DNA of 52,258 nt. It comes from Paracoccaceae bacterium. Lineage in GTDB: Bacteria; Pseudomonadota; Alphaproteobacteria; Rhodobacterales; Rhodobacteraceae. The translations under genes were made by a program, and so were the position numbers. The notes beneath the pieces were generated by a model, which was not told where the DNA came from, searched no databases, and saw nothing but the letters and a program-made list of their open reading frames with translations. Each line of letters starts with the position of its first letter. Position 1 is the stretch's first letter. The DNA lies in contig PAQV01000038.1 in the NCBI GenBank assembly GCA_002709405.1, forward strand, positions 1 to 52,258, given 5' to 3'. Of this stretch, positions 15,517 through 33,801 are shown one piece after another.

Positions 15517-15528
15517 GTTCGTCTTTCG

Positions 15529-15966: not shown

Positions 15967-16910
15967 TGGTTCAGCCCCAGGGCCTTGGCGACCTTGGACA
16001 GGGCGTCGTATTCGCCCTGCAGCCGGTCCGCCAGGGCGTCGCCGGTGACGACGTTGGGGGTTTCGCCCTTGGTGGCCAGGAACTCGACATAGGCCGGGTC
16101 GTTGACGGTTTTCTCCAGCGCGGCGGCCAGGGTGTCGACGATGGCCGGGTCCAGGCCCGCCGGGCCCAGCACCATGCGCCACAGCAGCGTTTCCTCGGCG
16201 CCCAGACCCAGGCTTTCAAGGCCGGCGGCCTGGGGCAGGGCGTCCACGGGGGCGGCGGAGGTGACGATCAGGCACTTGGCCTCGCCGTTTTCGGTGTAGG
16301 GCAGGACCGGAGAGATCGAGCCGCCGTAGATGTCGATGTGGCCGCCCAGGAAGTTCTGCAGCGTTTCGCCCGCGCCGCCGAAGGGGATGGCGATCGCGTC
16401 GATCTCGCGGCTTTGGAAGATCCGCTCGGCCGCAAGCTGCATGGTGCCGCCGATGCCGTCATTGCCATAGGTGTACTTGGCGGGGTTGGCGGCGAGCTCG
16501 GCCAGGAACTCCTCTCCGGTGTCGGCCGGGAAATCGGGTTTGACGCACAGGGTGTAGGCGGTTTCCGAGGTCGAGGCGATCGGCGTGAAGCTGTCGGGTT
16601 GGTAGGCGGTCTGCTGGACCTGGGGCACCGTGGTGATCGGGCTGTTCCAGGTGGCCAGCAGGGAATAGCCGGTGGGCTTTTGCATCATGAACTGGGTGAC
16701 ACCCACGGACCCGCCGCCGCCGGCCACGTTCAGGATAGCGATCGAGGCGCCAAGTTCCTCTTCCAGCAGGGTGGCCAGCTTGCGGGCGCTGGTGTCGGTT
16801 CCGCCGCCGGCGGGGGCGGGGATCGTCACCTCGATGGCGCGTTCGGGGTAATCGGCGAAGGCCGGTGTTGCCAGCGCAACGGCAGCAATGGTCAGGGCGA
16901 GATGTTTCAT
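15963..16910 (-). CDS. tctC: Tripartite tricarboxylate transporter substrate-binding protein TctC (second system)
   Basis: A 315-residue periplasmic Bug-family protein. The signal peptide covers residues 1-19 (ending PAFA), and the mature start DYPERAIEVTIPAPAGGGTD is the family hallmark. The ATG at 16910 follows GGGAGGA; the frame is open further upstream but runs into the regulator gene. It delivers a carboxylic acid to TctAB. It follows the GntR/UTRA regulator gene by 35 bases, so the regulator is probably autoregulated with the transporter. Confidence 0.92.
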   Translation of the reverse strand: MKHLALTIAAVALATPAFADYPERAIEVTIPAPAGGGTDTSARKLATLLEEELGASIAILNVAGGGGSVGVTQFMMQKPTGYSLLATWNSPITTVPQVQQTAYQPDSFTPIASTSETAYTLCVKPDFPADTGEEFLAELAANPAKYTYGNDGIGGTMQLAAERIFQSREIDAIAIPFGGAGETLQNFLGGHIDIYGGSISPVLPYTENGEAKCLIVTSAAPVDALPQAAGLESLGLGAEETLLWRMVLGPAGLDPAIVDTLAAALEKTVNDPAYVEFLATKGETPNVVTGDALADRLQGEYDALSKVAKALGLNQ

Positions 16911-16945
16911 TGAGTGTCCTCCCTCAAGTGGATCTGGAAAAGATG

Positions 16946-17674
16946 TCAGCCGATGCGGCTGCGGTAGCGGAAGCTGTCGGCCCGGCCGCTGGCGATGCGC
17001 CATTCGATGGGCTCGCCGGCGACGGTGAAGGCCGTGCGCTCGATGACGGCGATGGGATCGTTGGGGGCGATGCCAAGGCGTTTCGCGGTGGCCGGGTCGG
17101 CCGCGCCGAAGCGGACCTCGTCCTCGGCCCGGTTCACGAACACGCCGAACCGGTCGAGGTAAACGGGGTAAAGCAGGGGGCCCACGTCGGTTTCGGGCAT
17201 GGATTCGAAGCCCGCGAAAGTGGCGTAGGGGATGAAGAGTTCTTCCGACAGGAACGGCTGTTCGGACAGGTAGCGCAGGCGTTCGATGCGGATCACGTCG
17301 TCGGTGCCAAGGGCCTTGGCCACGTGGGCGGGGGCGTGGGTGCGGACGCGGGAAATCAGGCGGCTGCTGGGGATCGAGGCGTCGGAATTGGCGTCCCGGG
17401 CCTGGAAGAAGCGGAAGAGTGTCGCATCGAAGGCCGGTTTGCGCAGGAAGGTGCCGGTGCCCTGGCGCCGTTCCAGCAGGCCCTCGTCGACCAGCTGTTG
17501 AACGGCCTTGCGCACGGTGCCCACGGACAGCCCGTGGTCGCGGGCCAGGGCGTTGTCAGAGGGCAGGGGCTGTTCGGCGGTCCATTCGCTTGCCGCAATG
17601 CGGGCGGCCAGTTCGTCGCGCAGGCGCAGGTAGGCCGGAAGCCGATTGTCAAAGCTTTTCAGTTTATTGGCCAT
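16946..17674 (-). CDS. GntR-family regulator, HutC/UTRA type
   Basis: A 242-residue regulator. The winged helix covers residues 12-80 (LPSDNALARDHGLSVGTVRK, then RRQGTGTFL as the wing). The UTRA domain from about residue 100 has the chorismate-lyase-like fold; ERLRYLSEQPFLSEELFIPY and the closing GEPIEWRIASGRAD are its typical strands. GGAGGGGAGG precedes the ATG. It begins the tctCBA run and is divergent from the amidohydrolase. A 14-bp palindrome 56 bases from its start is its likely operator. Effectors of UTRA proteins are usually substrates or early intermediates of the controlled pathway. Confidence 0.92.
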   Translation of the reverse strand: MANKLKSFDNRLPAYLRLRDELAARIAASEWTAEQPLPSDNALARDHGLSVGTVRKAVQQLVDEGLLERRQGTGTFLRKPAFDATLFRFFQARDANSDASIPSSRLISRVRTHAPAHVAKALGTDDVIRIERLRYLSEQPFLSEELFIPYATFAGFESMPETDVGPLLYPVYLDRFGVFVNRAEDEVRFGAADPATAKRLGIAPNDPIAVIERTAFTVAGEPIEWRIASGRADSFRYRSRIG

Positions 17675-17710
17675 GATTCCTCCCCTCCGGTGGACGGAAG
17701 ATGAAGGATT

Positions 17711-17743
17711 TGACTGCCATAGTCAACTGGTTCTATATAGAAC
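17711..17743. promoter_or_regulatory. Divergent operator: 14-bp palindrome plus adjoining dyad
   Basis: GTTCTATATAGAAC (17730-17743) is a perfect palindrome of the AT-centred kind bound by HutC-type GntR proteins. Just left of it, TGACT-N5-AGTCA (17711-17725) is a second perfect dyad. A TTGACT at 17710-17715 could be a -35 box with a TATATA-like -10 at about 17734 inside the palindrome, so bound repressor would cover the amidohydrolase promoter. Confidence 0.7.
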
Positions 17744-17766
17744 TGAATAACTGGAGGAATCCCACG

Positions 17767-18537
17767 GTGTTACGCTTTGACTGCCACGCCCATGTCTATG
17801 AAGAGGTGGTCGCCGTGGGGCATGTCCGTTACCTGCCAAAGCGCCCCGCGCCGCTGGCAGAGTGGTTGCGGTTGCAGCAGGATCATGGCGTGTTGGGCGG
17901 GGTGATCGTCCAGGTCAGTTTCCTGGGCACCGACAATTCCCAGATGCTGCGCGCGCTGGACGGCCTGCCGCGCGATCGTTTTGCCGGGATCGCCGTCATT
18001 GCCACCGACACAAGCGCAGACGAGATCGCCCGGCTGGCGGCCGGTGGTGCGCGGGGCATCCGGTGGAACCTGGTTGCCGGGGCCGAGATCCCGGACCTGG
18101 AGTCGGCCGAGGTGCAACGGCTGATGGGGCGGCTGGCGGATCACGGTATGCACCTGGAAATGCAGCTGGAAAGCGCGCGGCTGGCGCCTGTGCTTGAAGG
18201 CTTTTCGCGGCTGCCCGTGCCCGTGGTGATCGACCACCAGGGGCTGCCGGAAACCTCGGCTGCGGACGAGCCCTGGCTTGACGCCCTTGAGGCGCTGGAG
18301 GACCGCAGCGTGTTCCATGTCAAGCTGTCCGCCCCTTACCGGGGCACGGGTACAACGCTGGCCCATGCCGAGCGGCTGATGACGTTGCTGCCGGCCGACC
18401 GGTTCGTCTGGGGCAGCGACTGGCCCCATACGCGCCACGAGGCCCGGGCCGTCTATGACGGGCTGCGCGGCGCGCTGGCTGACCGGGTCGACGATGCGGC
18501 GGCGGCCCTTCGGCTTTACGGGCTGAGCGCCGGCTGA
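17767..18537 (+). CDS. Amidohydrolase, 2-pyrone-4,6-dicarboxylate-lactonase-like
   Basis: A 256-residue TIM-barrel metal hydrolase (Amidohydrolase-2 type). FDCHAHV near the N-terminus is the D-x-H-x-H metal motif, PVVIDHQG supplies a mid-barrel His, and FVWGSDWPHT carries the catalytic Asp. This pattern fits the LigI-like lactonase group. The GTG at 17767 is preceded by GGAGGA; an ATG at 17701 would make the operator part of the protein. The protein probably opens a lactone or decarboxylates a cyclic dicarboxylate brought in by the divergent TctCBA. The exact substrate is not readable. Confidence 0.8.
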   Translation: MLRFDCHAHVYEEVVAVGHVRYLPKRPAPLAEWLRLQQDHGVLGGVIVQVSFLGTDNSQMLRALDGLPRDRFAGIAVIATDTSADEIARLAAGGARGIRWNLVAGAEIPDLESAEVQRLMGRLADHGMHLEMQLESARLAPVLEGFSRLPVPVVIDHQGLPETSAADEPWLDALEALEDRSVFHVKLSAPYRGTGTTLAHAERLMTLLPADRFVWGSDWPHTRHEARAVYDGLRGALADRVDDAAAALRLYGLSAG

Positions 18538-18604: not shown

Positions 18605-19555
18605 TTAATAGCCCCGGGTCAGGTTCACGCTCTCGGGCAGCTCGCCCGTTTGGCGGAACCGGATGATATTGCCTGCCACGACCTGCGCCCCGGTCTCGGG
18701 ATCGGTGGGCCCCGAGATATGCGGCAAGACGGTGATGCCGGGGGTGTCCCACAGGGGCGACTCGGCGGGCAGCGGTTCCTGGTCGAAGACATCCAGCACC
18801 GCGTGGCCGACCTGCCCGCTGGCCAGCGCCTTGATCAAAGCTTCGGTGTCGACGATGGGCCCCCGGGCAAAGTTGATCAGCCCCGCGCCGGTCTTCATGC
18901 GGCCCAGGGTGGTGGCGTTCAGCAATCCGCGCGTCTGGGGTGTGAGAGGCAGCAGACAGATGACGATGTCACTGCGCGACAGAAGATCCTCCAGCCCGTC
19001 GTCCCCGGACAGGCAGTCGATGCCGGGCAGGCTCTTGGGGCTGCGACTCCATCCGATGACGTTGAAATCCTGGGCCTGGATGCGCGCGGCCGAGGCGGCG
19101 CCCAGCTCTCCGAGACCAAGCAGGCCGACGGTCACCGAGGATGCGCTGCGGTAGGGTTCCTGCACCCATTCGCGGGCGCTTTGGTGGCGGGCATAGGCGG
19201 GCATGTCGCGGAACAGGTAATAGGTCCAGGCCAGGGCGGCCTCGGACATGTTGCGCGCCAGCTGCGGATCGACGAGCCGGACGATGGGCGGGGTAAAGCC
19301 GGGCAGTTCGGCGACCAGCCGCTCGACGCCGGCCCAGAGGCTGTGGACCCAGACCAGGTTGGGCAGGTCGGACAGGTCCTTGGGGTCGGGGTTCGCGACG
19401 ATGGCGATATCGACATCCGCGCGGTCGTCCTGGGACATGGCGCGCAGCGACTGGATGGTCTCGGCGGGCAGGGCGGCGCGCAGGAGCGTCAGCCATTCGG
19501 CCTCGGCCTCGTCCGAGAGCCGGGTGACAAGCGCGATTTGGTGGGAAGCGGACAT
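18605..19555 (-). CDS. D-2-hydroxyacid dehydrogenase, GhrA-like
   Basis: A 316-residue NAD(P)H-dependent enzyme. The Rossmann turn GLLGLGELG lies at about residues 144-152. The catalytic triad is in place: Arg231 (NFARGPIVD), Glu260 (DVFDQEPLP) and His279 (LPHISGPT). This LPHISGPTDP ending resembles glyoxylate/hydroxypyruvate reductase A. It interconverts a 2-oxo acid and a D-2-hydroxy acid in the cytoplasm. It follows the amidotransferase-like gene by 15 bases and is last in the minus-strand run under the tandem-winged-helix regulator. It could reduce the 2-oxo acid made by the aminotransferase across the divergent promoter. Confidence 0.88.
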   Translation of the reverse strand: MSASHQIALVTRLSDEAEAEWLTLLRAALPAETIQSLRAMSQDDRADVDIAIVANPDPKDLSDLPNLVWVHSLWAGVERLVAELPGFTPPIVRLVDPQLARNMSEAALAWTYYLFRDMPAYARHQSAREWVQEPYRSASSVTVGLLGLGELGAASAARIQAQDFNVIGWSRSPKSLPGIDCLSGDDGLEDLLSRSDIVICLLPLTPQTRGLLNATTLGRMKTGAGLINFARGPIVDTEALIKALASGQVGHAVLDVFDQEPLPAESPLWDTPGITVLPHISGPTDPETGAQVVAGNIIRFRQTGELPESVNLTRGY

Positions 19556-19570
19556 GGGTCTTCTTTCGGT

Positions 19571-20794
19571 TCAGTCGTTCAGGGGGTGTTGGGCGGTGGC
19601 GGCCTCGAGGAAGGCGCGGAACAGGGGATGCGGAGCGCCGCGCCGGGTCAGCAGCTCGGGGTGGCCCTGCAGGCCGATGCAGAAGGTCAGGTCGGGCCGT
19701 TCGACCGCATCGGCCAGGGGCGCGGTGTCCTGCCAGGCCGAGATGCGCAGCCCGGCCCGTTCCAGCGGAGCATGCAGGGCGGGGTCCAGCACGTAGCGGT
19801 GGTTGGCGGGGATCGGGGCGGTGTCGGTGTTGATGCGCAGGATCCGGGCCAGGTGGGATCCGGGAACGGGGCGCATGCTGTGCAGGCCGATGCGGAACGC
19901 GCCGGGCGCCTCGTCGGGCCGCAGCCTGCGGAAGACCTTGGTTTCGGCATCCGGGGCGACCTCTGCCATGTTGGCATCGTTGAGCGCGCCGCAGGTCTGG
20001 GCGATTGCGGTGGTCAGGGTCTGCATGCCCAGGCAGAGGCCCAGCAGGGGGGTGTCCGTCTGGAAGGCCTGGCGCGCGACGCGGATCTGGCCGGCGACCT
20101 GGTCCATGTCGGCCCCGCCCGGCAGGACGATGCCCCGGACCTTGTCGAGCTGGTGGGGCAGGCTGGCGTCCGGGGCTTCGGCCGGGTCCCAGAAGTTCAG
20201 ATCCAAGCCCAGATCGCAGGTATCTGCGGCATCGCCAAGAGCGGCGAGCACGGCCGGGTAGGTGTGCCGCAGGCGCGTTTCCGACCCGACGATCAGCAGG
20301 GGCAGGGTGTCCACGGGGGGCGGGGTCGGTCCCGGGACCGGGCGGCCAAAGGCGTCGGTGGTCCAGTCGGGGGCCAGGCCTGGCGGCACGTCGCCTGTCA
20401 GGGTCCAGCCGCCTTCGCGGTCGCGCACGATTATGCGGCGGATGTCGTGGCCTGCTTGGCGGGCCTTGCGGTCAAGGCGTTCGGCCATCTCGACCTGGGC
20501 GGGAACGGCCGGGTTGACCGGGACCAGCACGGCCGCGTCAAGACGCCTGGCGATGACGGCCGGGGGCAGGGCCGGGGGGACGGGGTGCCCCGAGGCCCAT
20601 TCGCTCCAGAACAGCCCATTGGCGGCCAGCGCGCCAGAGGCCAGCACGTGCTGGCAGGCCTCGTAGGCGCCAAGCCCGGCACCGCCGGTGTCGAGACAGA
20701 GGAATTCGGCACCCGTCTGGGCGGCGATCACGCCGGCCAGCATGGCGTCACGGGCGGGCGACGTGGTGTCGTGATGGACGAAGGTCAGAGGCAT
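19571..20794 (-). CDS. CTP-synthase-like class I glutamine amidotransferase with unknown N-terminal region
   Basis: A 407-residue protein. From about residue 165 it reads as a class I glutamine amidotransferase of the CTP-synthase kind: GIVLPGGADMD, the nucleophile elbow PLLGLCLGMQTL with Cys254, NHRYVLDP (compare the RHRYE segment of CTP synthase) and the GLQGHPEL dyad with His378 and Glu380. Residues 1-160, beginning FVHHDTTSPARDAMLAGVIA, are not a CTP-synthase synthetase domain; I see no P-loop and do not recognise them. It may hydrolyse or transfer a gamma-glutamyl or amide nitrogen. It is co-oriented with a 2-hydroxyacid dehydrogenase and downstream of its regulator gene. An unspecified amidase is an alternative. 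Confidence 0.7.
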   Translation of the reverse strand: MPLTFVHHDTTSPARDAMLAGVIAAQTGAEFLCLDTGGAGLGAYEACQHVLASGALAANGLFWSEWASGHPVPPALPPAVIARRLDAAVLVPVNPAVPAQVEMAERLDRKARQAGHDIRRIIVRDREGGWTLTGDVPPGLAPDWTTDAFGRPVPGPTPPPVDTLPLLIVGSETRLRHTYPAVLAALGDAADTCDLGLDLNFWDPAEAPDASLPHQLDKVRGIVLPGGADMDQVAGQIRVARQAFQTDTPLLGLCLGMQTLTTAIAQTCGALNDANMAEVAPDAETKVFRRLRPDEAPGAFRIGLHSMRPVPGSHLARILRINTDTAPIPANHRYVLDPALHAPLERAGLRISAWQDTAPLADAVERPDLTFCIGLQGHPELLTRRGAPHPLFRAFLEAATAQHPLND

Positions 20795-20825
20795 GGCGGC
20801 TGTCCGGGCGGGGCGGGGCGCAGGG

Positions 20826-21725
20826 TCATTTGCCCCCCGATGCCGAGGATGCGGTGCTGGCGCCCCGGGCGCCCTGCAGGTGGCTGGCCATCAGGTCAGA
20901 GGCGTTGTCCAACTGGCCGTTCGCGACGGCGTCGATGATCTTGATGTGCTCGCGGCACCAGGCGCGGATCCGGGCGCGGTTCGAATAGGTGGCGAATTCC
21001 AGCAGCCGGCGCAGGCGGTTCTGGTGCTGGATGGCCTGAAGCAGGAACGGGTTGCGGGAGAACTCGGCAATGGTTTCGTGGAAGGTCGCGTCCAGCTCGA
21101 ACAGCTGCTTGCCCATGCTTTCATTCAGGTTCGGGTGGTCGTGGACATAAAGGTGCTGCAGCCGCAGCCGGTCCAGCGCGGCCTTGTCGGCGCGGAAGCT
21201 GGGCAGAAGGATGCCCGGAGGTTCCAGCAGCAGGCGGTATTCGTAGCTGGCCTGCTGGGTTTCCATGTCTTCCATCGTCGGCAGGAAGGTCCAGTTGCGC
21301 CCCGGCCCCCGGTTGACCAGCCCGTCGCGTTCCAGCTCGGCCAGCACGTTGCGCACCATCGCGCGGTCGGCGTCGTAGACGCGGGCCAGCTCGGTGATCG
21401 AGACCTCTTCGCTCAGCGCGCCGGCGATCCGGTCCTGCATGATGCGGGCATAGATGCGCTGCGCCGAGGATGGCGGCGTGGCCACATCCAGCTTGGTCAG
21501 CTGGTCGGCGGGCAGGCGCAGGAAGTAGCCCTTGTTGCGGATCGAATCGACCGCGCCCTTTTCGGCCAGCAGGGCCAGGGCGGCCCGGACGGGCGTCCGC
21601 GACACGCCCAGCATTTCCGCAAGCTGCTGTTCGCGCAGATGGTGGCCCGGCTCGAACCGGGATTCGATCACCAGATCAAGGATCTGGTTGGCGAGCTGAT
21701 AGCGGGCCTGCTGCGCGGCGTTCAT
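20826..21725 (-). CDS. GntR/FCD regulator with two winged-helix domains
   Basis: A 299-residue regulator. Its first winged helix is at about residues 8-75 (EQQLAEMLGVSRTPVRAALA). A second helix-turn-helix-like block follows at about residues 88-150 (EEVSITELARVYDADRAMVR, then ELERDGLVNRG). The C-terminal FCD domain has D-x3-H in LDATFHETI and later His in REHIKII and ASHLQGA. I use the ATG at 21725; a GTG at 21758 in frame lies within the control region. Two DNA-binding domains per chain are uncommon in this family. It is divergent from the amino-acid ABC operon and probably controls both sides. Confidence 0.85.
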   Translation of the reverse strand: MNAAQQARYQLANQILDLVIESRFEPGHHLREQQLAEMLGVSRTPVRAALALLAEKGAVDSIRNKGYFLRLPADQLTKLDVATPPSSAQRIYARIMQDRIAGALSEEVSITELARVYDADRAMVRNVLAELERDGLVNRGPGRNWTFLPTMEDMETQQASYEYRLLLEPPGILLPSFRADKAALDRLRLQHLYVHDHPNLNESMGKQLFELDATFHETIAEFSRNPFLLQAIQHQNRLRRLLEFATYSNRARIRAWCREHIKIIDAVANGQLDNASDLMASHLQGARGASTASSASGGK

Positions 21726-21748
21726 GAGATCTTGTCCAAGATTGCACG

Positions 21749-21986
21749 TTGTTCTCACACTTGAACAATAATTTCACCCCAAATGGAAAGCCGATAATGG
21801 GCCCGGATGGCCCTGATCCAGCGGAAGTGACCGCTTTGCAGTCGTTATGATCCTACTTTTTCCGTTGCTTCCGGCGTTATTGTCTGTTTTTTGTGCAGAT
21901 CACCGGGTCTCGAGCCAAAGTGTCGCGGTCCCTGCGGAATACAGCTTGCTTTGTATGTTTGATGATGAGTTGAACAATCTTGTCAA
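21749..21986. promoter_or_regulatory. Candidate operator sites in the 285-base divergent region
   Basis: TTGTTC-N8-GAACAA (21749-21768) is a perfect 6-bp dyad just upstream of the regulator gene. The 9-mer TTGAACAAT inside it recurs at 21970-21978, 33 bases before the ABC operon start, followed by CTTGTCAA, so TTGA-N9-TCAA forms a second loose dyad. A pair of sites suits a regulator with two DNA-binding domains. The rest of the gap is AT-richer with no other distinct feature. Confidence 0.5.
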
Positions 21987-22010
21987 AACAACCAACCGAC
22001 AGGGATCGCA

Positions 22011-22832
22011 ATGATCATTTCTCGACTGACCCAGACTGTTGTCGCCGGCATGTTCGCCCTTGCCGCCGCAGCCCCCGCAACTGCCGCCGACATGCCCGAA
22101 ACCGGTCTCGTCGAAACGGGCAAGCTGACCTATGGCGTGGCGGCCACCTTCGCGCCGTTCGAATTCATGCGTGACGGAGACCTGACCGGCTTTGACATCG
22201 ACATGATCGCGGCGCTGGCGGAAAAGCTGTCGGTCGAACCCGAAGCCAGCAACATGGAATTCAAGGGCCTGATCCCGGCGCTGCAGGGCGGGCGGATCGA
22301 CATGATCAATTCGGCCATGTACATGAACGAGGCCCGCGCCGAGCAGGTGGATTTCGTCGAATACATGCAGATCGGCAACCGGGTGATCGTGCAGGCGGGC
22401 AACCCCAAGGGCGTGACCGGGCGCAATGACACCCTGTGCGGCACGACCATCGCGGTCACGCTGGGCGGCATCCAGGAAAGCCAGGCCCGGGCCGATGACG
22501 CGCGCTGCAAGGAAGCGGGCAAGGACGGCATCAACGTGATGACCCTGCCCACCGCCCAGGACAGCGCCCTGACCCTGCGCCAGGGCCGCGCCGACGCGAT
22601 CTTCGACAGCACCCCGGGTTCGGTCGTCCTGATGGACAAGGTGCCGGGCGTCTACGAGGTCGTGGGCGACGAGTTCGAACAGAACAACCTGGTGGGCATG
22701 GCCTTCCGCAAGGGCGACACCGCCATCGCCGAGGCCCTGGCCGCGGCCCTGTCGGAAATCGTCGAGGACGGCACCTATGACGCCCTTCTCGAGAAATGGA
22801 ACCTGCCCGCGTCGGTTTCCATCTTCAACTGA
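22011..22832 (+). CDS. Polar amino-acid ABC transporter substrate-binding protein
   Basis: A 273-residue periplasmic protein of the family-3 type. The signal peptide spans residues 1-26. The mature domain opens with GKLTYGVAATFAPFEFM, then FDIDMIAALAEKL, the standard family motif, and later a TLGGIQESQ stretch at the amino-carboxylate phosphate-like loop. Two Cys (about residues 143 and 164) could pair. It leads an operon with permease, ATPase and five enzymes. The ligand is most likely an amino acid or a small cyclic/acyl derivative, judging by the downstream enzymes. Confidence 0.92.
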   Translation: MIISRLTQTVVAGMFALAAAAPATAADMPETGLVETGKLTYGVAATFAPFEFMRDGDLTGFDIDMIAALAEKLSVEPEASNMEFKGLIPALQGGRIDMINSAMYMNEARAEQVDFVEYMQIGNRVIVQAGNPKGVTGRNDTLCGTTIAVTLGGIQESQARADDARCKEAGKDGINVMTLPTAQDSALTLRQGRADAIFDSTPGSVVLMDKVPGVYEVVGDEFEQNNLVGMAFRKGDTAIAEALAAALSEIVEDGTYDALLEKWNLPASVSIFN

Positions 22833-22850
22833 CCCCTAACATGACACCCG

Positions 22851-22878
22851 GTCCCGTAGCCCCCGCCGGCTACGGGAC
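22851..22878 (+). promoter_or_regulatory. Stem-loop between binding-protein and permease genes
   Basis: A perfect 11-bp stem (GTCCCGTAGCC at 22851-22861, GGCTACGGGAC at 22868-22878) with a 6-base loop. No T-run follows. It is typically a 3' stabiliser that lets the binding protein be made in excess of the permease. Confidence 0.7.
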
Positions 22879-22909
22879 ATTGAAACGACGAAAGGCCCTG
22901 TAAGCCCCA

Positions 22910-23659
22910 ATGTCCCTCGACCTTGTCCTGCAATATCTGACGTCCCAGTCCTTTGCGCACGGTGCCTGGATCACGCTGCTGATCACCGTTGTATCGCTTC
23001 TGTTCGGAGTGATCGCCGGTTTCATCATCGCTCTGGCCCAGCAGGTCCGTTTCGCGCCGGTCAAGGTGTTGGTGACGGGCTATCTCTGGCTGTTCCGCGG
23101 CACGCCCGTGCTGTTCCAGATCATCTTCATCTACAACGTGCTGCCCAGTTTCGACATCCGGTTCAGCGCCTTCTGGTCCGGCGTCATCGCGTTGTCGCTG
23201 AACGAAGCCGCCTACATGGCCGAGATCATCCGTTCGGGCCTGTCCTCGGTCAAGAAGGGCCAGCGGACCGCCGGCCAGGCCCTGGGCATGACGCGGTTGT
23301 CGGTGTTGCGCTGGGTGGTTTTGCCCCAGGCCGCGCGGATCGTGCTGCCGCCGATGGGCAACCAGATGATCGGCATGCTGAAGACCTCGGCCCTGGTGTC
23401 GGTGATCGCGGTGCAGGATCTTCTGCTGGTCGCGAACCAGACCGCCTCTGCCGATTTCCGCTATTTCGAGGCGCTGACGGCCGCCGGCATCTATTACCTC
23501 GGGCTGACCACGATCTTCATGTTCCTGCTGGCCACGATGGAGGCCGCGCTGGACCCCAAGTTGCGCCGGGCCCGGGCCACGGGGGCTGCCGGGTTCGGTG
23601 GCCTGGTCCGCCGGATCATTTCCAACACCAAGAAAGCCGGAGCCGACAATGCCCGCTGA
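22910..23659 (+). CDS. Amino-acid ABC transporter permease, HisMQ/GlnP type
   Basis: A 249-residue inner-membrane protein with about five helices. WLFRGTPVLFQIIFIYN is the N-terminal HisMQ signature. The cytoplasmic EAA loop reads KKGQRTAGQALGMTRLSVLRWVVLPQAARIVLPP, shown here as two adjoining parts. It forms the translocation path, probably as a homodimer because only one permease gene is present. Its end overlaps the ATPase gene by 11 bases. Confidence 0.92.
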   Translation: MSLDLVLQYLTSQSFAHGAWITLLITVVSLLFGVIAGFIIALAQQVRFAPVKVLVTGYLWLFRGTPVLFQIIFIYNVLPSFDIRFSAFWSGVIALSLNEAAYMAEIIRSGLSSVKKGQRTAGQALGMTRLSVLRWVVLPQAARIVLPPMGNQMIGMLKTSALVSVIAVQDLLLVANQTASADFRYFEALTAAGIYYLGLTTIFMFLLATMEAALDPKLRRARATGAAGFGGLVRRIISNTKKAGADNAR

Positions 23660-24392
23660 AGACACGATCCTCGAACTGGTCCAGGTGTCCAAATCCTTCG
23701 ACGACCTCCAGGTGCTGACGGATTGCAGCCTTCGGGTCAAAAAGCGCGAAACGCTGGTTCTGATCGGGCCGTCGGGGTCGGGCAAATCGACCCTGCTGCG
23801 CTGCATCAACCTGCTGGAGCCGCCCAGCAAGGGGTCGGTGCTGTTCGAAGGGCGCGAGATTTCCGGCGACCTGCGCCATGGCGACAAGGTGCGGCGCGAC
23901 ATCGGCATGGTGTTCCAGAACTTCGAGCTGTTCCAGCACCTGAACGCGGTGGAAAACATCATGCTGGCGCCGATGAAGGTGCTGGGCATGAGCCGCCACG
24001 ACGCCCATGACCTGGGCCTGGAACTGCTGGGCAAGGTGCATATCCCCGAGCGGGCCGATCACTTCCCCGACGAGCTGTCGGGCGGCCAGCAGCAGCGCGT
24101 GGCGATTGCCCGGGCGCTGGCGATGCGGCCCAAGATCATGCTGTACGACGAACCCACGTCGGCGCTTGATCCCGAGATGATCCGCGAGGTGCTGGACGTG
24201 ATGACCGAGCTGTCCAACGAGGGCATGACCACCGTCTGCGTCACCCATGAAATGGGCTTTGCACGCCGGGCCGCGGACCGGATCGTCTTCATGGAAGACG
24301 GCCGCATCCTGGAAGACGCCGCCACCGAGGAATTCTTCGGGGGCAAGGCCAACGAGCGCGCCCAGAAATTCCTGTCGCAGATCCTGCACTGA
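23649..24392 (+). CDS. Amino-acid ABC transporter ATP-binding protein, GlnQ/HisP type
   Basis: A 247-residue ATPase with Walker A LIGPSGSGKST (about residues 36-46), Q-loop VFQNFELFQHL, signature LSGGQQQRVAIARAL, Walker B IMLYDEPTSALDPE and switch His in CVTHEMGFA. The Q-loop FELFQHL form is typical of the polar amino-acid subfamily. I use the ATG at 23649 inside the permease end, where the product opens MPAEDTILELVQ. It energises the single-permease importer of this operon. Confidence 0.95.
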   Translation: MPAEDTILELVQVSKSFDDLQVLTDCSLRVKKRETLVLIGPSGSGKSTLLRCINLLEPPSKGSVLFEGREISGDLRHGDKVRRDIGMVFQNFELFQHLNAVENIMLAPMKVLGMSRHDAHDLGLELLGKVHIPERADHFPDELSGGQQQRVAIARALAMRPKIMLYDEPTSALDPEMIREVLDVMTELSNEGMTTVCVTHEMGFARRAADRIVFMEDGRILEDAATEEFFGGKANERAQKFLSQILH

Positions 24393-24408
24393 ACCACCGG
24401 AAGACCAC

Positions 24409-25566
24409 ATGATCGCCCAACCGCAGCCCGACCGCCTTGTCGCGCATCTTGCCGCCCTCGTTGCCATCCCGTCCGAGAACCCTCCGGGGGGCGAGCGGGC
24501 GGTGGCCGAGTATGTCCGGGACCAGCTGGACCCGCTGGGCTTCACCGTGCGGCTGGAGGAATACGCGCCCGGTCGGTTCAATGTCGAAGCGGTGCTGGAA
24601 AACGGCCCTGGCCCGGTCTTTGCGCTGAACACGCACATGGACACGGTGCCGGCGGGCGAGGGCTGGGCCACCGATCCCTTCGTGCTGACCGAAAAGGACG
24701 GCAAGCTTTACGGACGGGGCAGCGTCGATTGCAAGGGCCCTCTGGCGGCGATGATCGAGGCGCTTCAACTGATGTCCGAGGCGCGCGACGGTTGGTCCGG
24801 CACGCTGATGGGGGTCTTTACCGGCGACGAGGAAGTCGCCAGCGAAGGGGCCAAGTTCTACTGTGGACGGAACTCGGCGATCGACATGGTGATTGTTGGT
24901 GAGCCCACTGCAAACACGACCTTTTCGGCGCACAAGGGGTCCTATCGGCCGCGCGTGCGGGTGCTGGGAAAAGCGGCGCATTCCGGCAGCCCTCACCTGG
25001 GCGAAAACGCGATCTTTGCGGCCGGCCAGCTGATGCCACGGATCGCCGCCTTTCATGATGATGTGCTGTCGCAGCGGTCCCATCCCCTTGTCGGCAATCC
25101 CAGCCTGACGGTCACGCGGATCGCGGGGGGCCATGCGGACAACGTGATTCCCGACGCCTGCGAGCTGCTGCTCGACCGGCGCCTGATCCCGGGCGAAACC
25201 GACGACAGCGCCGAGGCCGAGATCGAGGCGCTGTTGCAGGCGGCCCGCGAAGACCTGGGCCTCTGCTGCGAGATCGTCGGCAAGAATGCGACCACCGGCG
25301 GGGCGACGGAAACGGCCGAGGACGCGGCCATCGTGCAGACCTCGCTTGCGGCCTGCGCGGCGGCGGGTGTCGCGGCGCCCGGGCCCTTCGGGTTCCAGGG
25401 AGCCTGCGACCTGGTGCATTTCATCGAGGCCGGCGCGACCGGAACGGTCATCGGGGCCGGAGACATCCGCGTGGCCCACAAGCCCGACGAGTTCGTGCCG
25501 AAGGACGAGTTCATCGCCTCTGCCGGGATCTATGCCGACATCGCGCAACGCGTGCTGTCAAAGTGA
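24409..25566 (+). CDS. M20-family metallopeptidase / N-deacylase
   Basis: A 385-residue zinc enzyme of the ArgE/DapE kind. FALNTHMDTVPAG gives His76 and Asp78, GRGSVDCKGPLAAM the bridging Asp107, and GDEEVASEG the catalytic Glu141 and ligand Glu142. IVGEPT (Glu165) and AHKPDEF near the end complete the site. A dimerisation domain lies between. It hydrolyses an amide bond, such as an N-acyl amino acid. It starts 16 bases after the ATPase gene and overlaps the next gene by GTGA, so it is part of the uptake-coupled pathway. Confidence 0.88.
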   Translation: MIAQPQPDRLVAHLAALVAIPSENPPGGERAVAEYVRDQLDPLGFTVRLEEYAPGRFNVEAVLENGPGPVFALNTHMDTVPAGEGWATDPFVLTEKDGKLYGRGSVDCKGPLAAMIEALQLMSEARDGWSGTLMGVFTGDEEVASEGAKFYCGRNSAIDMVIVGEPTANTTFSAHKGSYRPRVRVLGKAAHSGSPHLGENAIFAAGQLMPRIAAFHDDVLSQRSHPLVGNPSLTVTRIAGGHADNVIPDACELLLDRRLIPGETDDSAEAEIEALLQAAREDLGLCCEIVGKNATTGGATETAEDAAIVQTSLAACAAAGVAAPGPFGFQGACDLVHFIEAGATGTVIGAGDIRVAHKPDEFVPKDEFIASAGIYADIAQRVLSK

Positions 25567-26663
25567 CCCTGGCCTATCGGTTCCACCGGGCGTCGCTGCA
25601 TTACGAGGGGCTGACGCTGCACACCGCCAGTTCGGGCGCGGTGCCCGGGCTTGATGCGCTGTACCTGGCGTTGGGCCCCGAGAGTACGCCCGAGGCCGTG
25701 GCCGAGGTGCGCCTGAACTGCGCCTACCTCAACGGCTACGACCCCGAGGATCTGGTCGCCGAGGCGCAGGCCTTTGCGGCGGTGCTGGACTGGACGAAGG
25801 CCCCGGCTGCCCTGCGGGCGGTCGTTGCCGACAGCGCGGCGCGGGCTCCGGTCCGGGCGCTTTTCGATTGCGCGCTTTGGGATTTGGAGGCCCGGCGGGC
25901 CGGGGTGCCCCTGGCGCATCTGATCGCGGGCAAGCCGGTGCCGCTGGCGCGGGGCAGCAACCAGACGCTGTTTCTGTCCTCGGATGAGGACCTGGTCGCG
26001 CGGGCCGATGCCTATGTCGCGCGGGGCTTTCGCGATCTGAAGGTGCGCTTCGGCCCCGAATTCGGCGCGGACCTGCGGCGGCTGACCCTGTTGCGCGATC
26101 GCTTCGGGCCGGACCTGACCCTGGCCATCGATGCGAACGGATCCTGGTCCGTCGACGATGCAGCGGGCCGCCTTGCCGCGCTGGGGCCGCTGGCCCTGAA
26201 ATACGTGGAACAGCCGATCCCGCCGGGCGACTGGCCGGCGCTGATCCGCCTGGCCAAGGCGGCTCCGATGCCCCTGATGCTGGACGAAAGCATGGCCGAC
26301 GACGACGACGTGACCCGCACCATCGAGGGCTTCGAGGCCGCGGGCCGCAAGCTTTGGGCGCATCTCAAGCTGATCAAGACCGGGGGCATCACCCCCGCGC
26401 TTCAGGCCGTAAGGCGGCTGGAGGCGGCCGGTGTTCCTTTCATGATCGGGCAGATGAACGAAGGCGGGCTGGCCACGGCCGCCGCCGCTCACCTGGCGCT
26501 GGCCACCACGCCGGTTGCCGCTGAACTCTACGGGGCTGACGGGCTGACCGACGATCCCGCCCCGGGGCTGATCTACGAGGACGGGCGCATCACGGTTCCC
26601 GCCGCCCCGGGACTTGGACTGACTTTCGACAAGCGGCGTGCGCCGCGCATGATGGAGAACTGA
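25563..26663 (+). CDS. Enolase-superfamily (MLE/mandelate racemase-like) enzyme
   Basis: A 366-residue enzyme with an alpha/beta capping domain and a TIM barrel. Metal ligands are Asp190 (AIDANGSW), Glu216 (YVEQPIP) and Asp241 (MLDESMA). The far-side base Lys269 lies in HLKLIKTGG. The near-side motif reads Lys160-Val-Arg162 rather than the usual K-x-K, so one of the two expected lysine bases is Arg. This favours one-sided chemistry (dehydration or specific epimerisation) over free racemisation. The GTG start overlaps the M20 stop. The substrate is probably an amino-acid derivative from this operon. Confidence 0.87.
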   Translation: MTLAYRFHRASLHYEGLTLHTASSGAVPGLDALYLALGPESTPEAVAEVRLNCAYLNGYDPEDLVAEAQAFAAVLDWTKAPAALRAVVADSAARAPVRALFDCALWDLEARRAGVPLAHLIAGKPVPLARGSNQTLFLSSDEDLVARADAYVARGFRDLKVRFGPEFGADLRRLTLLRDRFGPDLTLAIDANGSWSVDDAAGRLAALGPLALKYVEQPIPPGDWPALIRLAKAAPMPLMLDESMADDDDVTRTIEGFEAAGRKLWAHLKLIKTGGITPALQAVRRLEAAGVPFMIGQMNEGGLATAAAAHLALATTPVAAELYGADGLTDDPAPGLIYEDGRITVPAAPGLGLTFDKRRAPRMMEN

Positions 26664-26664
26664 A

Positions 26665-27834
26665 ATGGACAATGCAGGCGTGGTGCAGGGACAGGAATCC
26701 GCCTTTCCCAAGGCCGAGTACGAGGCACGCCAGGCCGGGGCCCGCGCGCGGCTGGCAGCGGCCGGGCTTGACGCGATGGTCATCACCGGTCCGGAGAACA
26801 TCTATTACCTGACCGGTCAGCAGACCCCGGGCTATTACACGTTCCAGGCGCTGATCCTGCCAGCCGAGGGCGACCCGGTCTTCGTGATCCGCCAGCTGGA
26901 ATATTACAACTTCATTGCCAATACCTTTATCTCGGACGCCACCGTGTTCCAGGATGCCGAGGATCCCATCGACGTGCTGATGCGCGTGCTGGACCGGATG
27001 AAGCTGAAGGGCCGCCGCGTCGCCATCGACAAGAAGGGTTGGTTCCTGCCCATCGCCGTTTACGAACGGATGCAGGAGGCGCTTGGCGCGCTGGAAGATT
27101 GCGCCGGCATCGTCGAGGTCGGCCGGGCGGTCAAATCTCCGCTGGAGGTCGAGAAGCTGCGCAAGGCCGCGTCCTACGTCGATGCGGGCATGACCGCCGG
27201 GCTGGCCGCCGTGAAAGCCGGCGCAACGGATAACGACCTGGTGGCGGCGATGCTGCAGGCCTCGATCTCGGCCGGGTCGGAATACATGGGGATGGAGCCG
27301 CTGGTGTCCACCGCCAGCCGCACCGGCGTGCCGCACGGCACCTGGCGCCGGACGGCCCTGTCGGACAACGATCCGGCCTTCCTGGAAATGGCCTGCGTGC
27401 ACGACCGTTATCATGCGGCCCTGATGCGCTCGGCCTGGGTCGGGCCTGTTCCGCAGGTGGCCGAGGACATGATGAAGGTCTGCCAGGAGGCGCTGGCCGT
27501 CTCGCTGGAAGAAATCAAGCCGGGCGTGCCCTGCGAGGTGCCGCACATGGCCTGCCAGAAGGTCATCGACAAGGCGGGCTACACCGACAATTTCCGCAAG
27601 CGGCTGGGCTATTCGACCGGCATTTCCTTTGCGCCGGACTGGGGCGAAGGCGCGATCCTGTCGCTGAACGCGGGCGTCAAGACAGAGCTTCAGCCGGGCA
27701 TGGCCTTCCACCTGCCGCCGGCGCTGCGGATCTACGGCCAGTTCACCGTGGGCGTGTCCGAGACCATCGTGGTGACCGAAACCGGCTGCGAGCAGCTGGG
27801 CACCGTCGCCCGCGACCTGCTGTGCGTCGCCTGA
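26665..27834 (+). CDS. Pita-bread hydrolase, ectoine-hydrolase/creatinase-like, metal ligands lost
   Basis: A 389-residue protein of the M24 fold with an N-terminal creatinase domain (about residues 15-155) and a C-terminal pita-bread domain. The five metal ligands of aminopeptidases are mostly gone: Glu241 and Ala251 (EMACVHDRYHAALMR) replace the two Asp, the His motif reads LGYSTGISFAPDWGE, and the FHLPPAL stretch replaces the Glu-Pro motif. These same forms occur in ectoine hydrolase and creatinase, which open cyclic C-N bonds without metal. GGAG precedes the ATG, 2 bases after the previous stop. I infer ring opening of a cyclic amidine, lactam or guanidine. Confidence 0.8.
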   Translation: MDNAGVVQGQESAFPKAEYEARQAGARARLAAAGLDAMVITGPENIYYLTGQQTPGYYTFQALILPAEGDPVFVIRQLEYYNFIANTFISDATVFQDAEDPIDVLMRVLDRMKLKGRRVAIDKKGWFLPIAVYERMQEALGALEDCAGIVEVGRAVKSPLEVEKLRKAASYVDAGMTAGLAAVKAGATDNDLVAAMLQASISAGSEYMGMEPLVSTASRTGVPHGTWRRTALSDNDPAFLEMACVHDRYHAALMRSAWVGPVPQVAEDMMKVCQEALAVSLEEIKPGVPCEVPHMACQKVIDKAGYTDNFRKRLGYSTGISFAPDWGEGAILSLNAGVKTELQPGMAFHLPPALRIYGQFTVGVSETIVVTETGCEQLGTVARDLLCVA

Positions 27835-27858
27835 TCGCCGCTTGATCCCTGCACTCGA

Positions 27859-27878
27859 GGGGGCGCAGCGGCGCCCCC
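27859..27878 (+). promoter_or_regulatory. Stem-loop between hydrolase and aminotransferase genes
   Basis: GGGGGCGC, an AGCG loop, and GCGCCCCC form a perfect 8-bp stem in the 66-base gap. With no T-run it may be a processing or partial attenuation site inside the operon. Confidence 0.5.
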
Positions 27879-27900
27879 AAACCAACGGAAAGACCTTTTC

Positions 27901-29118
27901 ATGACCTATCTCGCTTCGCGCATGTCCAGTGTCGGTGCCTCGCCGACCGCCGCGATTTCCGACACGCTTCGCCGGCTCGCCGCCGAGGGCAAGAGCGTCA
28001 TCAACCTGGGCGAGGGCGAGCTGGACTTCGCCACGCCGGATCATGTCTGCGAGGCCGGGATCGCCGCCATCCGGGGCGGCCAGACTAAGTACACCGCCGT
28101 TTCGGGGACGCCCGCCTTGAAAGAGGCCATTGCCCGCAAGTTCGCGCGTGAAAATGACATGGCTGTGCCGGTGTCGCAGATCATCGCCGGGGCAGGGGCC
28201 AAGCAACTGATCTTCAACGCGTTTCTGGCCACGCTCGATGCCGGGGACGAGGTGCTGGTGCCAGCGCCCTACTGGGTCAGCTATCCGGACATGGTCAGCC
28301 TGGCCGGGGGGACGCCGATCATCGTGCCGACCGGGGCGGAGACCGGGTGGAAGCTGACGCCGCAAGCCCTGGCCGGGGCCCTGGGGCCGCGCACCAAGTG
28401 GGTGATCCTGAATTCGCCCAACAATCCGACCGGTGCCGTCTACACGGCCGCCGAGATCCAGGCCCTGGGCGACGTGCTGGCCGATCACACCGCGCTGATC
28501 ATGGCCGATGACATTTATGAACACATGGTCCATGAGGTGCCCTTTACCGCGCCCGCCACGGCTTTGCCCGATCTGGCCGAGCGCATCCTGACCGTGAACG
28601 GCGTGTCCAAGGGCTATTCGATGACCGGCTGGCGGCTGGGCTACGCGACCGGTCCGGCCTGGCTGATCTCGGCCATGGACATCCTGCAATCGCAAAACAC
28701 CTCGAACCCGTCGACCGTGTCGCAGGCGGCCGCCATTGCCGCGCTGGACGGGGACATGAGCTTTGTCGACGGCTGGCGGGACAGCCTGCGCGCCCGGCGC
28801 GACCGGCTGGTCAAGGCGATCGGGGCGATCCCGGGGCTGGCAACCGACGTGCCGCCGGGGGCGTTCTATGTCTTCGCCGATTGCACCGGCCTGATCGGCA
28901 CCCGCCGGCCCGACGGCACGCGGATCGCGTCGGACGTGGACGTGGCGGAATACCTGGTGTCCGACGTCCACGTGGGCACCGTGCCCGGCACCGCCTTCGG
29001 CACGCCGGGCTACCTGCGCCTGGCCTATGCCATTGACGATGTGTTGCTTTCAGAGGCTATCGACCGCATCACCGCCGCTGTGGCAAAACTGGAGCCAGCC
29101 AGCCTCGTGTCGTCCTGA
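27901..29118 (+). CDS. Pyridoxal-phosphate aminotransferase class I/II, aspartate-aminotransferase-like
   Basis: A 405-residue fold-type I enzyme. YTAVSGTPALKEAIA (about residues 64-78), NSPNNPTGAVY with Asn175, Asp204 in MADDIYE, the PLP lysine Lys237 in NGVSKGYSMTGWRLGY, and Arg245 are all in place. It is similar in layout to the thermophile-type aspartate aminotransferases. It moves the amino group from the amino acid released by the deacylase and ring-opening enzymes to 2-oxoglutarate or pyruvate. Ectoine pathways use a class III aminotransferase instead, one reason I do not call this an ectoine cluster. Confidence 0.92.
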   Translation: MTYLASRMSSVGASPTAAISDTLRRLAAEGKSVINLGEGELDFATPDHVCEAGIAAIRGGQTKYTAVSGTPALKEAIARKFARENDMAVPVSQIIAGAGAKQLIFNAFLATLDAGDEVLVPAPYWVSYPDMVSLAGGTPIIVPTGAETGWKLTPQALAGALGPRTKWVILNSPNNPTGAVYTAAEIQALGDVLADHTALIMADDIYEHMVHEVPFTAPATALPDLAERILTVNGVSKGYSMTGWRLGYATGPAWLISAMDILQSQNTSNPSTVSQAAAIAALDGDMSFVDGWRDSLRARRDRLVKAIGAIPGLATDVPPGAFYVFADCTGLIGTRRPDGTRIASDVDVAEYLVSDVHVGTVPGTAFGTPGYLRLAYAIDDVLLSEAIDRITAAVAKLEPASLVSS

Positions 29119-29183
29119 CCATCGGTCGGGCCCTCTTCGCGCGGCGCCACTTTCACCTTTCCTGACGGACAAAGGGCAAACCC

Positions 29184-29597
29184 ATGACCTCACTTTTCCA
29201 TCTCGCCATCCACGTCACCGACCTGGACAAGACCCGGGCCTTCTACGGCGATGTGCTGGGCTGCAAGGAAGGCCGCAGCACCGACACCTGGGTGGATTTC
29301 GATTTCTTCGGCCACCAGCTGTCGATGCACCTGGGCGAGCCATTCAAGACAACCCGGACCGGCAAGGTTGGCGACCACATGGTGATGATGCCCCACATGG
29401 GTGCGGTGCTGCCGCTGGACGACTGGATGGCCCTGTCCGAGCGCCTGCAAGAGGCCGGGATCGAGTTCGACATCCCGCCCGTCATCCGGTTCGAAGGTGA
29501 GCCCGGCGAACAGCGGACCATGTTCTTCTTTGATCCCTCGGGGAATCCCATAGAGATCAAGGGGTTCAAGGACTTCGCCTCGGTCTACGCCAGCTGA
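29184..29597 (+). CDS. VOC-superfamily protein
   Basis: A 137-residue single-domain glyoxalase/bleomycin-resistance-fold protein. FHLAIHVTDLDKTRAFYGD gives the first metal His, HQLSMHL a second candidate, and FFDPSGNPIEIKGF the terminal Glu. It is the last gene of the operon, 65 bases after the aminotransferase. Proteins of this length dimerise to form the active site. It might isomerise or cleave a late intermediate; the role is unknown. Confidence 0.85.
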   Translation: MTSLFHLAIHVTDLDKTRAFYGDVLGCKEGRSTDTWVDFDFFGHQLSMHLGEPFKTTRTGKVGDHMVMMPHMGAVLPLDDWMALSERLQEAGIEFDIPPVIRFEGEPGEQRTMFFFDPSGNPIEIKGFKDFASVYAS

Positions 29598-31412: not shown

Positions 31413-31517
31413 CGCAGATAGCAACGACACCGTACCGTAGGCCCTGACATCCCAAGGCGTGGATTGGCCTTCGTTGGCCCCCCGGTGTCTCTGAACGGGT
31501 ATCAGCTCTTACCGAGG

Positions 31518-31558
31518 CCGTCATGGCATGCCGGTCTCCCATCCTGCCATCATGACGG
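31518..31558. promoter_or_regulatory. Interrupted dyad upstream of the ABC operon
   Basis: CCGTCATG (31518-31525) and CATGACGG (31551-31558) are perfect 8-bp arms 25 bases apart, with GCA/TGC continuing inward. The site lies 134 bases before the binding-protein start in a gap with no clear gene. It could be an operator or a transcript hairpin. Confidence 0.35.
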
Positions 31559-31691
31559 AATTGAAACGCATCACGGTCCGCCAGGAGGACGCCGCAGCAG
31601 CGGCCGGCGGCGGGTGGAGGCTCTGACAAAGGACATGCGGGGGCTCTGGCTGAACGCTGACATGCGGGCCGGATCGAATGGGAGGATCACG

Positions 31692-32864: not shown

Positions 32865-32880
32865 TCCGTCCTGACTGTGT

Positions 32881-32912
32881 CGCGCCTGGCGGAGCCACCT
32901 CCGGCAGGCGCG
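32881..32912 (+). promoter_or_regulatory. Stem-loop between binding-protein and permease genes
   Basis: Two 14-base arms (32881-32894 and 32899-32912) pair at 13 positions with one G-G mismatch around a CCAC loop. No T-run follows. It sits directly after the binding-protein stop, like those at 22851 and 51013. Confidence 0.65.
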
Positions 32913-32928
32913 CCCAAGGAGACCCCTC

Positions 32929-33798: not shown

Positions 33799-33801
33799 AA
33801 G

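Follow-up and report, generated by a model that had tools for sequence, protein, structure and literature searches.

A conserved divergent gene cluster of proteobacteria with a proposed role in taking up and degrading a cyclic or N-acylated amino acid

Introduction

Which compound is handled by a locus that places a polar amino-acid ABC importer beside an ectoine-hydrolase-like protein, an enolase-superfamily enzyme and a relative of CTP synthase? The question is raised by positions 18605-29597 of contig 38 (PAQV01000038.1) in the 5.39-Mb genome of a Paracoccaceae bacterium (GCA_002709405.1); the whole stretch analysed, 52,258 nucleotides, is called the window below. A first-pass annotation of this DNA had proposed one undescribed pathway built on the logic of ectoine breakdown, that is, import, ring opening, deacylation, transamination and reduction, with an epimerase or dehydratase step added. 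We report that the gene set is a real conserved unit, whose synteny goes far beyond chance. With moderate confidence, we read the locus as a GntR-controlled uptake and breakdown unit for a cyclic or N-acylated amino acid, probably of the glutamine/glutamate type. Its enzymes come from familiar families, in what seems to be an undescribed pathway: among the titles and abstract openings listed for open-access papers by gene combination, by compound or genus (10 of 76 papers listed) and by ectoine-hydrolase structure, enolase motif or CTP-synthase residue, none describes this cluster. A literature search with Agrobacterium fabrum C58 locus tags was also empty and carries little weight, the tags having been estimated.

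A conserved divergent gene set

Open reading frame (ORF) calls and family models gave eleven intact genes, arranged in two divergent operons, and every gene type named by the first-pass annotation was recovered among them. Three genes run leftward from the divergent region at 21759-22010: those of a GntR/FCD-family regulator, of a CTP-synthase-like amidohydrolase of 407 residues and of a GhrA-like 2-hydroxyacid dehydrogenase. The eight rightward genes encode a family-3 substrate-binding protein, a permease, an ATPase, an M20 protein, an enolase-superfamily enzyme, an M24 protein, a class I aminotransferase (AT) and a VOC protein. Two pairs of genes overlap; otherwise, genes of the same operon are 1 to 77 bases apart.

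Conservation was assessed in 86 loci anchored on the M24 gene: 80 from named genomes, five plasmid records and the window. The 80 were the best of 153 related stretches found in a named collection of 84,980 species with a profile of six M24 orthologues. Orthologues were counted within the stretch available for each locus, several of which end at contig ends; identity limits were chosen by eye after the data were seen, and some loci come from near-identical strains. On this basis, the M20, enolase-type and M24 genes were present in 86 of 86 loci, the ATPase in 85, the permease and the GntR regulator in 83 each, the binding protein in 81, the amidohydrolase in 74 and the class I AT in 61. Other genes recurred at lower counts, namely a DapA-type gene (55), a short-chain dehydrogenase/reductase-type gene (SDR, 44), the VOC and GhrA genes (17 each), a D-type AT (8) and an FAH-family gene (6). 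An independent anchor gave the same picture. With the enolase-type protein as query, 31 plasmid records matched. Identity was 45-57% in 30 of these, which proved to be the same 30 records whose M24 exceeds 60% identity. The first-pass annotation had held that a gene set scattered in relatives would speak against a single pathway, and had suggested looking for co-occurrence of the M24, enolase-type and amidotransferase genes; the three-gene core stayed together in every locus, joined by the amidohydrolase in the number given above.

A seven-gene core is kept across alpha-, beta- and gammaproteobacteria. Hosts include Rhizobium, Bradyrhizobium, Bosea, Methylobacterium, Pseudomonas, Caballeronia, Paraburkholderia, Pantoea, Erwinia, Rahnella, Klebsiella, Azospirillum and acetic acid bacteria, and Agrobacterium fabrum C58, a model strain, carries the cluster on its At plasmid. 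Many of the host genera associate with plants, and some are marine. Nearest to the window's M24 among the rows of our tree were Pseudooceanicola and Aquimixticola, and another genome of the window's genus has the whole set, with an M24 at 97% identity. Within the window's family, the distribution is sporadic. The enolase gene was found in 4 of 394 family genomes and, in a phylum-wide sample, in 1 of 398, the window's own, matches too few for unbiased co-occurrence statistics. A search of 244 family genomes with the amidohydrolase gave, beyond the window's genome, a best E-value of 5.6e-24, covering the CTP-synthase-like part only. Horizontal spread is the simplest reading of this sporadic distribution, though base composition is silent: the locus showed no island signal, its GC content ranging from 0.64 to 0.70 with flanks alike.

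The M24 protein and the comparison with ectoine breakdown

The M24 "pita-bread" protein (26665..27834, plus strand) has as its nearest solved relative the ectoine hydrolase DoeA (6twj, 3e-43), as the first-pass annotation had supposed. An alignment of 14 cluster M24s with four ectoine-type M24 proteins contains 38 identical columns, among them H224, T226, W227, E241, R248, Y249, R255, R313, W326, E328 and H349. The D, D, H, E and E positions of the aminopeptidase 7n02, which we take to be its metal ligands, align (as read by eye) with E241, A252, Y316, P351 and S365. Ectoine hydrolase and creatinase work without a metal. Since the metal-binding positions are replaced, the cluster M24 should, judging from the alignment, act metal-free in the same manner.

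Relatedness to DoeA raised the possibility of a variant ectoine or hydroxyectoine pathway, in which the M24 protein would be the ectoine hydrolase, the M20 protein a DoeB2-type deacetylase and the AT an enzyme acting on diaminobutyrate. Catabolism of ectoine and hydroxyectoine (PMC5924519) uses the ring hydrolase DoeA/EutD and a deacylase, DoeB or DoeB2; it shares with our cluster an M24 protein, an N-deacylase, an AT and an ABC importer with a family-3 binding protein. M20 and AT genes do adjoin M24, and to this extent the ectoine-like logic put forward in the first-pass annotation was borne out. In addition, a Tsukamurella cluster is annotated with a DoeB2 deacetylase, an AT and DoeA side by side, and Rhizobium jaguaris has a 40% identical M24 together with an M20 gene beside ectoine genes. 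In contrast, all curated ectoine models were missed by wide margins: the M24 scored 302 bits against a cut-off of 575 for DoeA_2 and 197 against 613 for EutD, and the importer scored 81 against 191 for EhuB, 142 against 197 for EhuC, 148 against 205 for EhuD and 268 against 345 for EhuA. In the M24 tree, whose branches are long and whose deeper order is unsure, the cluster proteins formed a clade of their own (support 98/97). A eutB-like gene occurs in 9 of the 86 loci (30-39% identity), and the copy scanned scored 300 bits as a hydroxyaspartate ammonia-lyase and 193 as EutB. Neither a class III AT nor a semialdehyde dehydrogenase was prominent among the families recurring in at least 5 loci, as judged by position and sequence, no dedicated search having been made. 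Unlike ectoine catabolism, the cluster includes enolase-type and CTP-synthase-like genes and either a DapA/SDR or a VOC/GhrA gene pair, is accompanied by a GntR/FCD regulator and has a single permease. Thus, curated cut-offs and gene content rule out ectoine breakdown proper, in agreement with the distinction drawn in the first-pass annotation, and make a variant of it very improbable.

Another M24, encoded on a plasmid of the Gram-positive Priestia megaterium (L127), groups with the Sinorhizobium ectoine hydrolase. Its neighbours carry the annotations hydroxyectoine dehydratase (EutB), M20, cyclodeaminase and homoserine dehydrogenase.

The enolase-superfamily enzyme and the M20 protein

The enolase-superfamily enzyme (25563..26663, plus strand; PF13378, 6.5e-44), of the muconate-cycloisomerase type, yielded a predicted model with a pLDDT of 93.5, whose nearest folds are 3dgb and 3q45. 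Its fold relatives comprise muconate cycloisomerase, dipeptide epimerase and N-succinyl-Arg/Lys racemase, and identity to the first 30 Foldseek matches is 20-27%. The acidic triad D190, E216 and D241, presumably the metal ligands of the superfamily, is kept in 86 of 86 loci. The catalytic lysines of such enzymes are a KxK motif on strand 2 and a lysine on strand 6. The sixth-strand lysine, K272, is invariant (86/86), and the motif reads K160-x-R162, with the arginine equally invariant (86/86). The enzyme thus shares fold, three acidic ligands and sixth-strand lysine with N-acylamino-acid racemase, dipeptide epimerase and muconate cycloisomerase, and differs in having K-x-R, not K-x-K, in every locus; the second lysine that marks N-acylamino-acid racemases and dipeptide epimerases is absent. 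Among its structure matches was 1mdl, the K166R mutant of mandelate racemase, so a Lys-to-Arg change can fold. That mutant is said to retain a little activity.

Next to this gene lies that of the M20 metallo-deacylase/peptidase, of the ArgE/DapE type (24409..25566, plus strand), which passes the TIGR01910 cut-off (228 bits versus 217.6). Its most likely start, judged from the sequence, is the ATG at 24409, inside an ORF that opens at 24247. Metal-ligand motifs of this family are retained in 84-85 of the 86 rows.

An epimerase followed by a deacylase would suit the scavenging of N-acyl-D-amino acids or D-dipeptides, from plant conjugates or cell-wall fragments: the enolase-type enzyme would epimerise, M20 hydrolyse and the AT follow, with M24 as an odd dipeptidase. 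This reading gains from the nearest solved relatives of the enolase-type enzyme, which are muconate lactonizing enzyme, dipeptide epimerases and N-succinyl-Arg/Lys racemase, and from the D-type AT found in eight loci. It has to contend, however, with the invariant arginine in place of the second catalytic lysine, with scores far under the curated cut-offs (DgcA, 119 versus 400 bits; L-Ala-D/L-Glu epimerase, 90 versus 343 bits) and with an M24 that has lost the metal-ligand positions of M24 peptidases. We consider it doubtful as a whole, and assignment of the enolase-type enzyme as a dipeptide epimerase or DgcA was ruled out by the cut-offs and the arginine. As for the epimerase or dehydratase step added in the first-pass annotation, the gene was confirmed in all loci and the word epimerase became uncertain, the second of the catalytic lysines found in known epimerases being absent.

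The importer and the CTP-synthase-like amidohydrolase

The importer consists of one binding protein (22011..22832; PF00497, 9.7e-37), one permease (22910..23659; PF00528, 6.5e-21) and one ATPase (23649..24392; GlnQ model, 5.9e-91), all on the plus strand; the ATPase most likely starts at the ATG at 23649, inside an ORF opening at 23598. When binding proteins were aligned to 4zv1, R109 was found in 81 of 81, and a serine occupied the usual aspartate position in 79 of 81. We assume that R109 holds the ligand carboxylate and that the usual aspartate holds the alpha-ammonium group. Retention of the former and replacement of the latter therefore fit a ligand whose alpha-amino group is not free.

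The amidohydrolase (19571..20794, minus strand; PF00117, 2.6e-18) is a class I glutamine amidohydrolase with a Cys254/His378/Glu380 triad. Its predicted model (pLDDT 94.4) has CTP synthase 1vco as nearest fold; the match to 1vco has an E-value of 1.1e-24. In an alignment to 1vco, C254, Q258, E278, R333 and E380 were present in 74 of 74 sequences and H378 in 73 of 74. The protein therefore has the fold, the glutaminase triad and the glutamine-site residues of the PyrG glutaminase domain. Unlike CTP synthase, it lacks the P-loop pattern of the ATP-binding amidoligase domain and sits among catabolic genes: the pattern G-x(4-6)-G-K-[GST] was found in 0 of 74 amidohydrolases versus 29 of 29 CTP-synthase frames used as a control, and the PyrG model gave 104 bits against a cut-off of 463. 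The lack of the P-loop pattern means that the protein is presumably not a synthetase. The residues of CTP synthase that correspond to E278 and R333 presumably hold the amino and carboxyl groups of glutamine. This suggests a free glutamine-like amino acid as the substrate. The amidohydrolase thus points to a glutamine-like intermediate, which was absent from the proposal of the first-pass annotation.

The aminotransferase and two mutually exclusive lower branches

The AT (27901..29118, plus strand) is of the aspartate-transaminase type, with 485 bits in the PRK06107 model against a cut-off of 617. K101 is kept in 61 of 61 sequences and matches a lysine that we take to hold the distal carboxylate in a thermophilic aspartate transaminase. 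Class I and D-type ATs were found together in none of the 86 loci.

Downstream chemistry appears in two versions. A DapA-type gene, usually with an SDR, marks 55 loci, the SDR being accompanied by DapA in 43 of its 44 loci. The VOC gene (in the window 29184..29597, plus strand; PF00903, 1.5e-12) and the GhrA-type 2-hydroxyacid dehydrogenase gene (18605..19555, minus strand, 316 residues; PF02826, 5.7e-49; 180 bits in the GhrA model against a cut-off of 403) occur together in 16 loci and each alone in one. The two branches exclude each other among the 86 loci: DapA-type genes coincided with GhrA in none and with VOC in none (Fisher 6.7e-10 each, values that are only indicative and overstate independence, since the loci are related by descent and the limits were set by eye). 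Reduction, one of the steps proposed in the first-pass annotation, did not prove general, the GhrA-type gene being restricted to 17 loci and DapA, usually with SDR, prevailing in 55.

The Shinella DapA-type protein fell below the curated DapA cut-off (112 versus 206 bits). Tyr141 and Lys168 are invariant in 55 of 55 DapA-type proteins, which makes an aldolase of the same fold as DapA likely. In the SDR (loci among L037-L123), S156 and N157, which presumably sit where the catalytic tyrosine is expected, are found in 44 of 44, so that this protein may not be an ordinary dehydrogenase. In the VOC protein, of glyoxalase fold, positions H6, H49 and E124 are H, H and E in 17 of 17 and are likely metal ligands. 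We had considered the VOC gene as a pathway-specific marker and dropped it, as it occurs in other contexts: it recurs elsewhere at 54-84% identity, and of seven such settings viewed (L160-L166), four adjoin a divergent LysR gene, one of these also having GhrA (L160) and one an FAH-family gene (L161).

Sister clusters with 5-oxoprolinase genes

A second recurring cluster (L039, L040, L041, L124 and L129) joins a related M24 (50-51% identity) and VOC to the 5-oxoprolinase genes pxpABC. Its hosts are Rhizobium tumorigenes, Salipiger, Agrobacterium tumefaciens, Shinella and Methylobacterium, and their records do not name it as a system. The M24s beside pxpABC form a separate clade (99/99), and the VOC is 79-85% identical in the first four hosts and 78% in Methylobacterium. 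Shared with the window type are thus M24, VOC, a D-type AT in four of five (58-62%) and an amino-acid ABC or TRAP importer. A class I AT (65%) was found in one, and the Methylobacterium cluster keeps M24, VOC and pxpABC together without a D-type AT. All five have GntR genes and an importer, and three have a second M24. A 2-hydroxyacid dehydrogenase is present in four, of another subfamily than the window's (32-33% identity in the four), and a carbamoylase-family amidase also in four. Instead of the M20, enolase-type and CTP-synthase-like genes, these clusters carry pxpABC; no match to any of the three was found in the five loci. Conversely, 7 of the 86 window-type loci include pxpA, pxpB or pxpC in their stretch (L036, on a Rhizobium lusitanum plasmid, 4998-25211; L061, L070, L075, L082, L086 and L088), and L036 also carries the pxp-type M24.

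5-Oxoprolinase opens a lactam to glutamate, and a glutaminase-like enzyme turns glutamine into glutamate. By analogy, the sister clusters may be the best hint on chemistry: whether a lactam is opened or a glutamine hydrolysed, the product would be an amino acid of the glutamate type, which would then be offered to the AT or D-type AT.

Regulation

The GntR/FCD regulator (20826..21758, minus strand, 310 residues) combines PF00392 (3.2e-22) and PF07729 (7.1e-21). In other loci, the AT and amidohydrolase genes often form a separate divergent pair. An 18-bp palindrome, TTGTAYAAATTTRTACAA, was first noticed in gaps flanking GntR genes. With up to 4 mismatches it was found in 27 of the 78 divergent gaps that flank GntR. 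Among the 41 remaining divergent gaps, of which 38 separate AT from amidohydrolase, 12 contained it. The palindrome was derived from the same loci in which it was then counted. For 300 shuffled palindromes of the same composition, the means were 0.72 and 0.43, and none reached the observed counts. Being common to both kinds of gap, the palindrome is a candidate operator that suggests a single regulon, and the cluster is probably regulated as one unit.

The proposed pathway

These elements can be assembled as follows. The ABC importer would bring in, from outside the cell and probably often from plants, a carboxylate whose alpha-amino group is not free. M24 would hydrolyse a C-N bond in a ring or of the amidine type, in the manner of ectoine hydrolase, and a ring substrate is plausible. 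The enolase-type enzyme would act at the alpha-carbon of an N-acyl acid, by epimerisation or elimination, and M20 would remove the N-acyl group. The CTP-synthase-like protein would hydrolyse a glutamine-like side-chain amide, and the AT, D-type in some species, would yield a substituted 2-oxo-dicarboxylate. The last step would fall to the DapA-type aldolase, usually with the SDR, and in the window to VOC and the 2-hydroxyacid dehydrogenase. We infer the order of the steps, the chemistry at each and the glutamine/glutamate type of the intermediate. That the intermediate is a substituted glutamate is a guess, made because plain glutamate would not call for a special aldolase or VOC step. A DapA-type aldolase would be well matched to a 4-hydroxy group. 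The idea of the first-pass annotation thus appears right in outline, with epimerisation and reduction as its uncertain parts.

A narrower version of this proposal is a long shot. It would be an undescribed route that degrades a ring compound derived from a glutamine-family amino acid hydroxylated at position 4 or 3, with a Lys/Arg enolase-type enzyme, a free-standing amide hydrolase and VOC as a metal-dependent lyase replacing the DapA-type aldolase. If true, that replacement would add an activity so far new to the VOC fold.

Several observations weigh against the proposed pathway. The window's own copy of the palindrome (21970..21987, in the divergent promoter region) is weak, with 5 mismatches to the motif. 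The Salipiger sister cluster has a DapA-type gene (29% identical to the cluster's) together with VOC, which weakens the replacement idea, and VOC may be a general enzyme, as its gene also occurs outside the pathway. Neither AT type was found in 17 of the 86 loci and no amidohydrolase in 12, some of these stretches ending at contig ends; five of the 12 are reduced to the seven core genes. The lower steps may therefore be dispensable. Eight Burkholderiales loci (L069, L076, L079, L080, L081, L091, L100 and L105) add a serine/threonine-dehydratase-type gene beside the cluster, and seven of them have an orthologous VOC or GhrA; L088 gave a ninth match, at the far end of the stretch. The one copy scanned was nearest to threo-3-hydroxyaspartate ammonia-lyase (300 bits, cut-off 452) and gave 241 bits for BhcB (cut-off 550), below both cut-offs, so that a beta-hydroxy, aspartate-type intermediate is possible.

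A last point concerns ring opening. Contig L169 (1-7483) comes from a genome that is 73% complete. Its 7.5 kb carry a carbamoylase-family gene (519 bits, cut-off 461) together with GntR, M20, enolase-type, AT and amidohydrolase genes, and gave no M24 match. Ring opening by M24 may therefore not be universal. The same contig lends some support to breakdown of a ureido or guanidino compound, such as a hydantoin or a creatinine-like molecule, with M24 acting like creatinase and another hydrolase like a carbamoylase. So do the sister clusters, which hold hydantoinase/carbamoylase-family amidases and, in two cases, "urea carboxylase-associated" genes. We nevertheless judge this explanation unlikely: the cluster M20 is of the ArgE/DapE type, not the carbamoylase type, and neither a urease nor a hydantoinase family was prominent, by position and sequence, among families recurring in at least 5 loci.

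Conservation of the seven-gene core across three classes of proteobacteria suggests that the compound is an amino-acid derivative common in the environment, one whose breakdown is apparently undescribed. The binding protein and the operator-like motif offer handles on it. The Lys-x-Arg enolase-type enzyme and the P-loop-less CTP-synthase-like amidohydrolase are two catalytic oddities of enzymological interest in their own right.

Genomic surroundings

Upstream of the locus, at 14032-18537, lie TctA/TctC tricarboxylate-type transporter genes and an Amidohydro_2 enzyme, and downstream, at 31464-36224, a branched-chain-type ABC importer. None of these neighbours was prominent among the families recurring in the 86 loci. 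Between the VOC gene and this importer, an ORF at 30543-31412 matches the middle domain of phage integrases (6.1e-09) and is possibly a trace of mobility.

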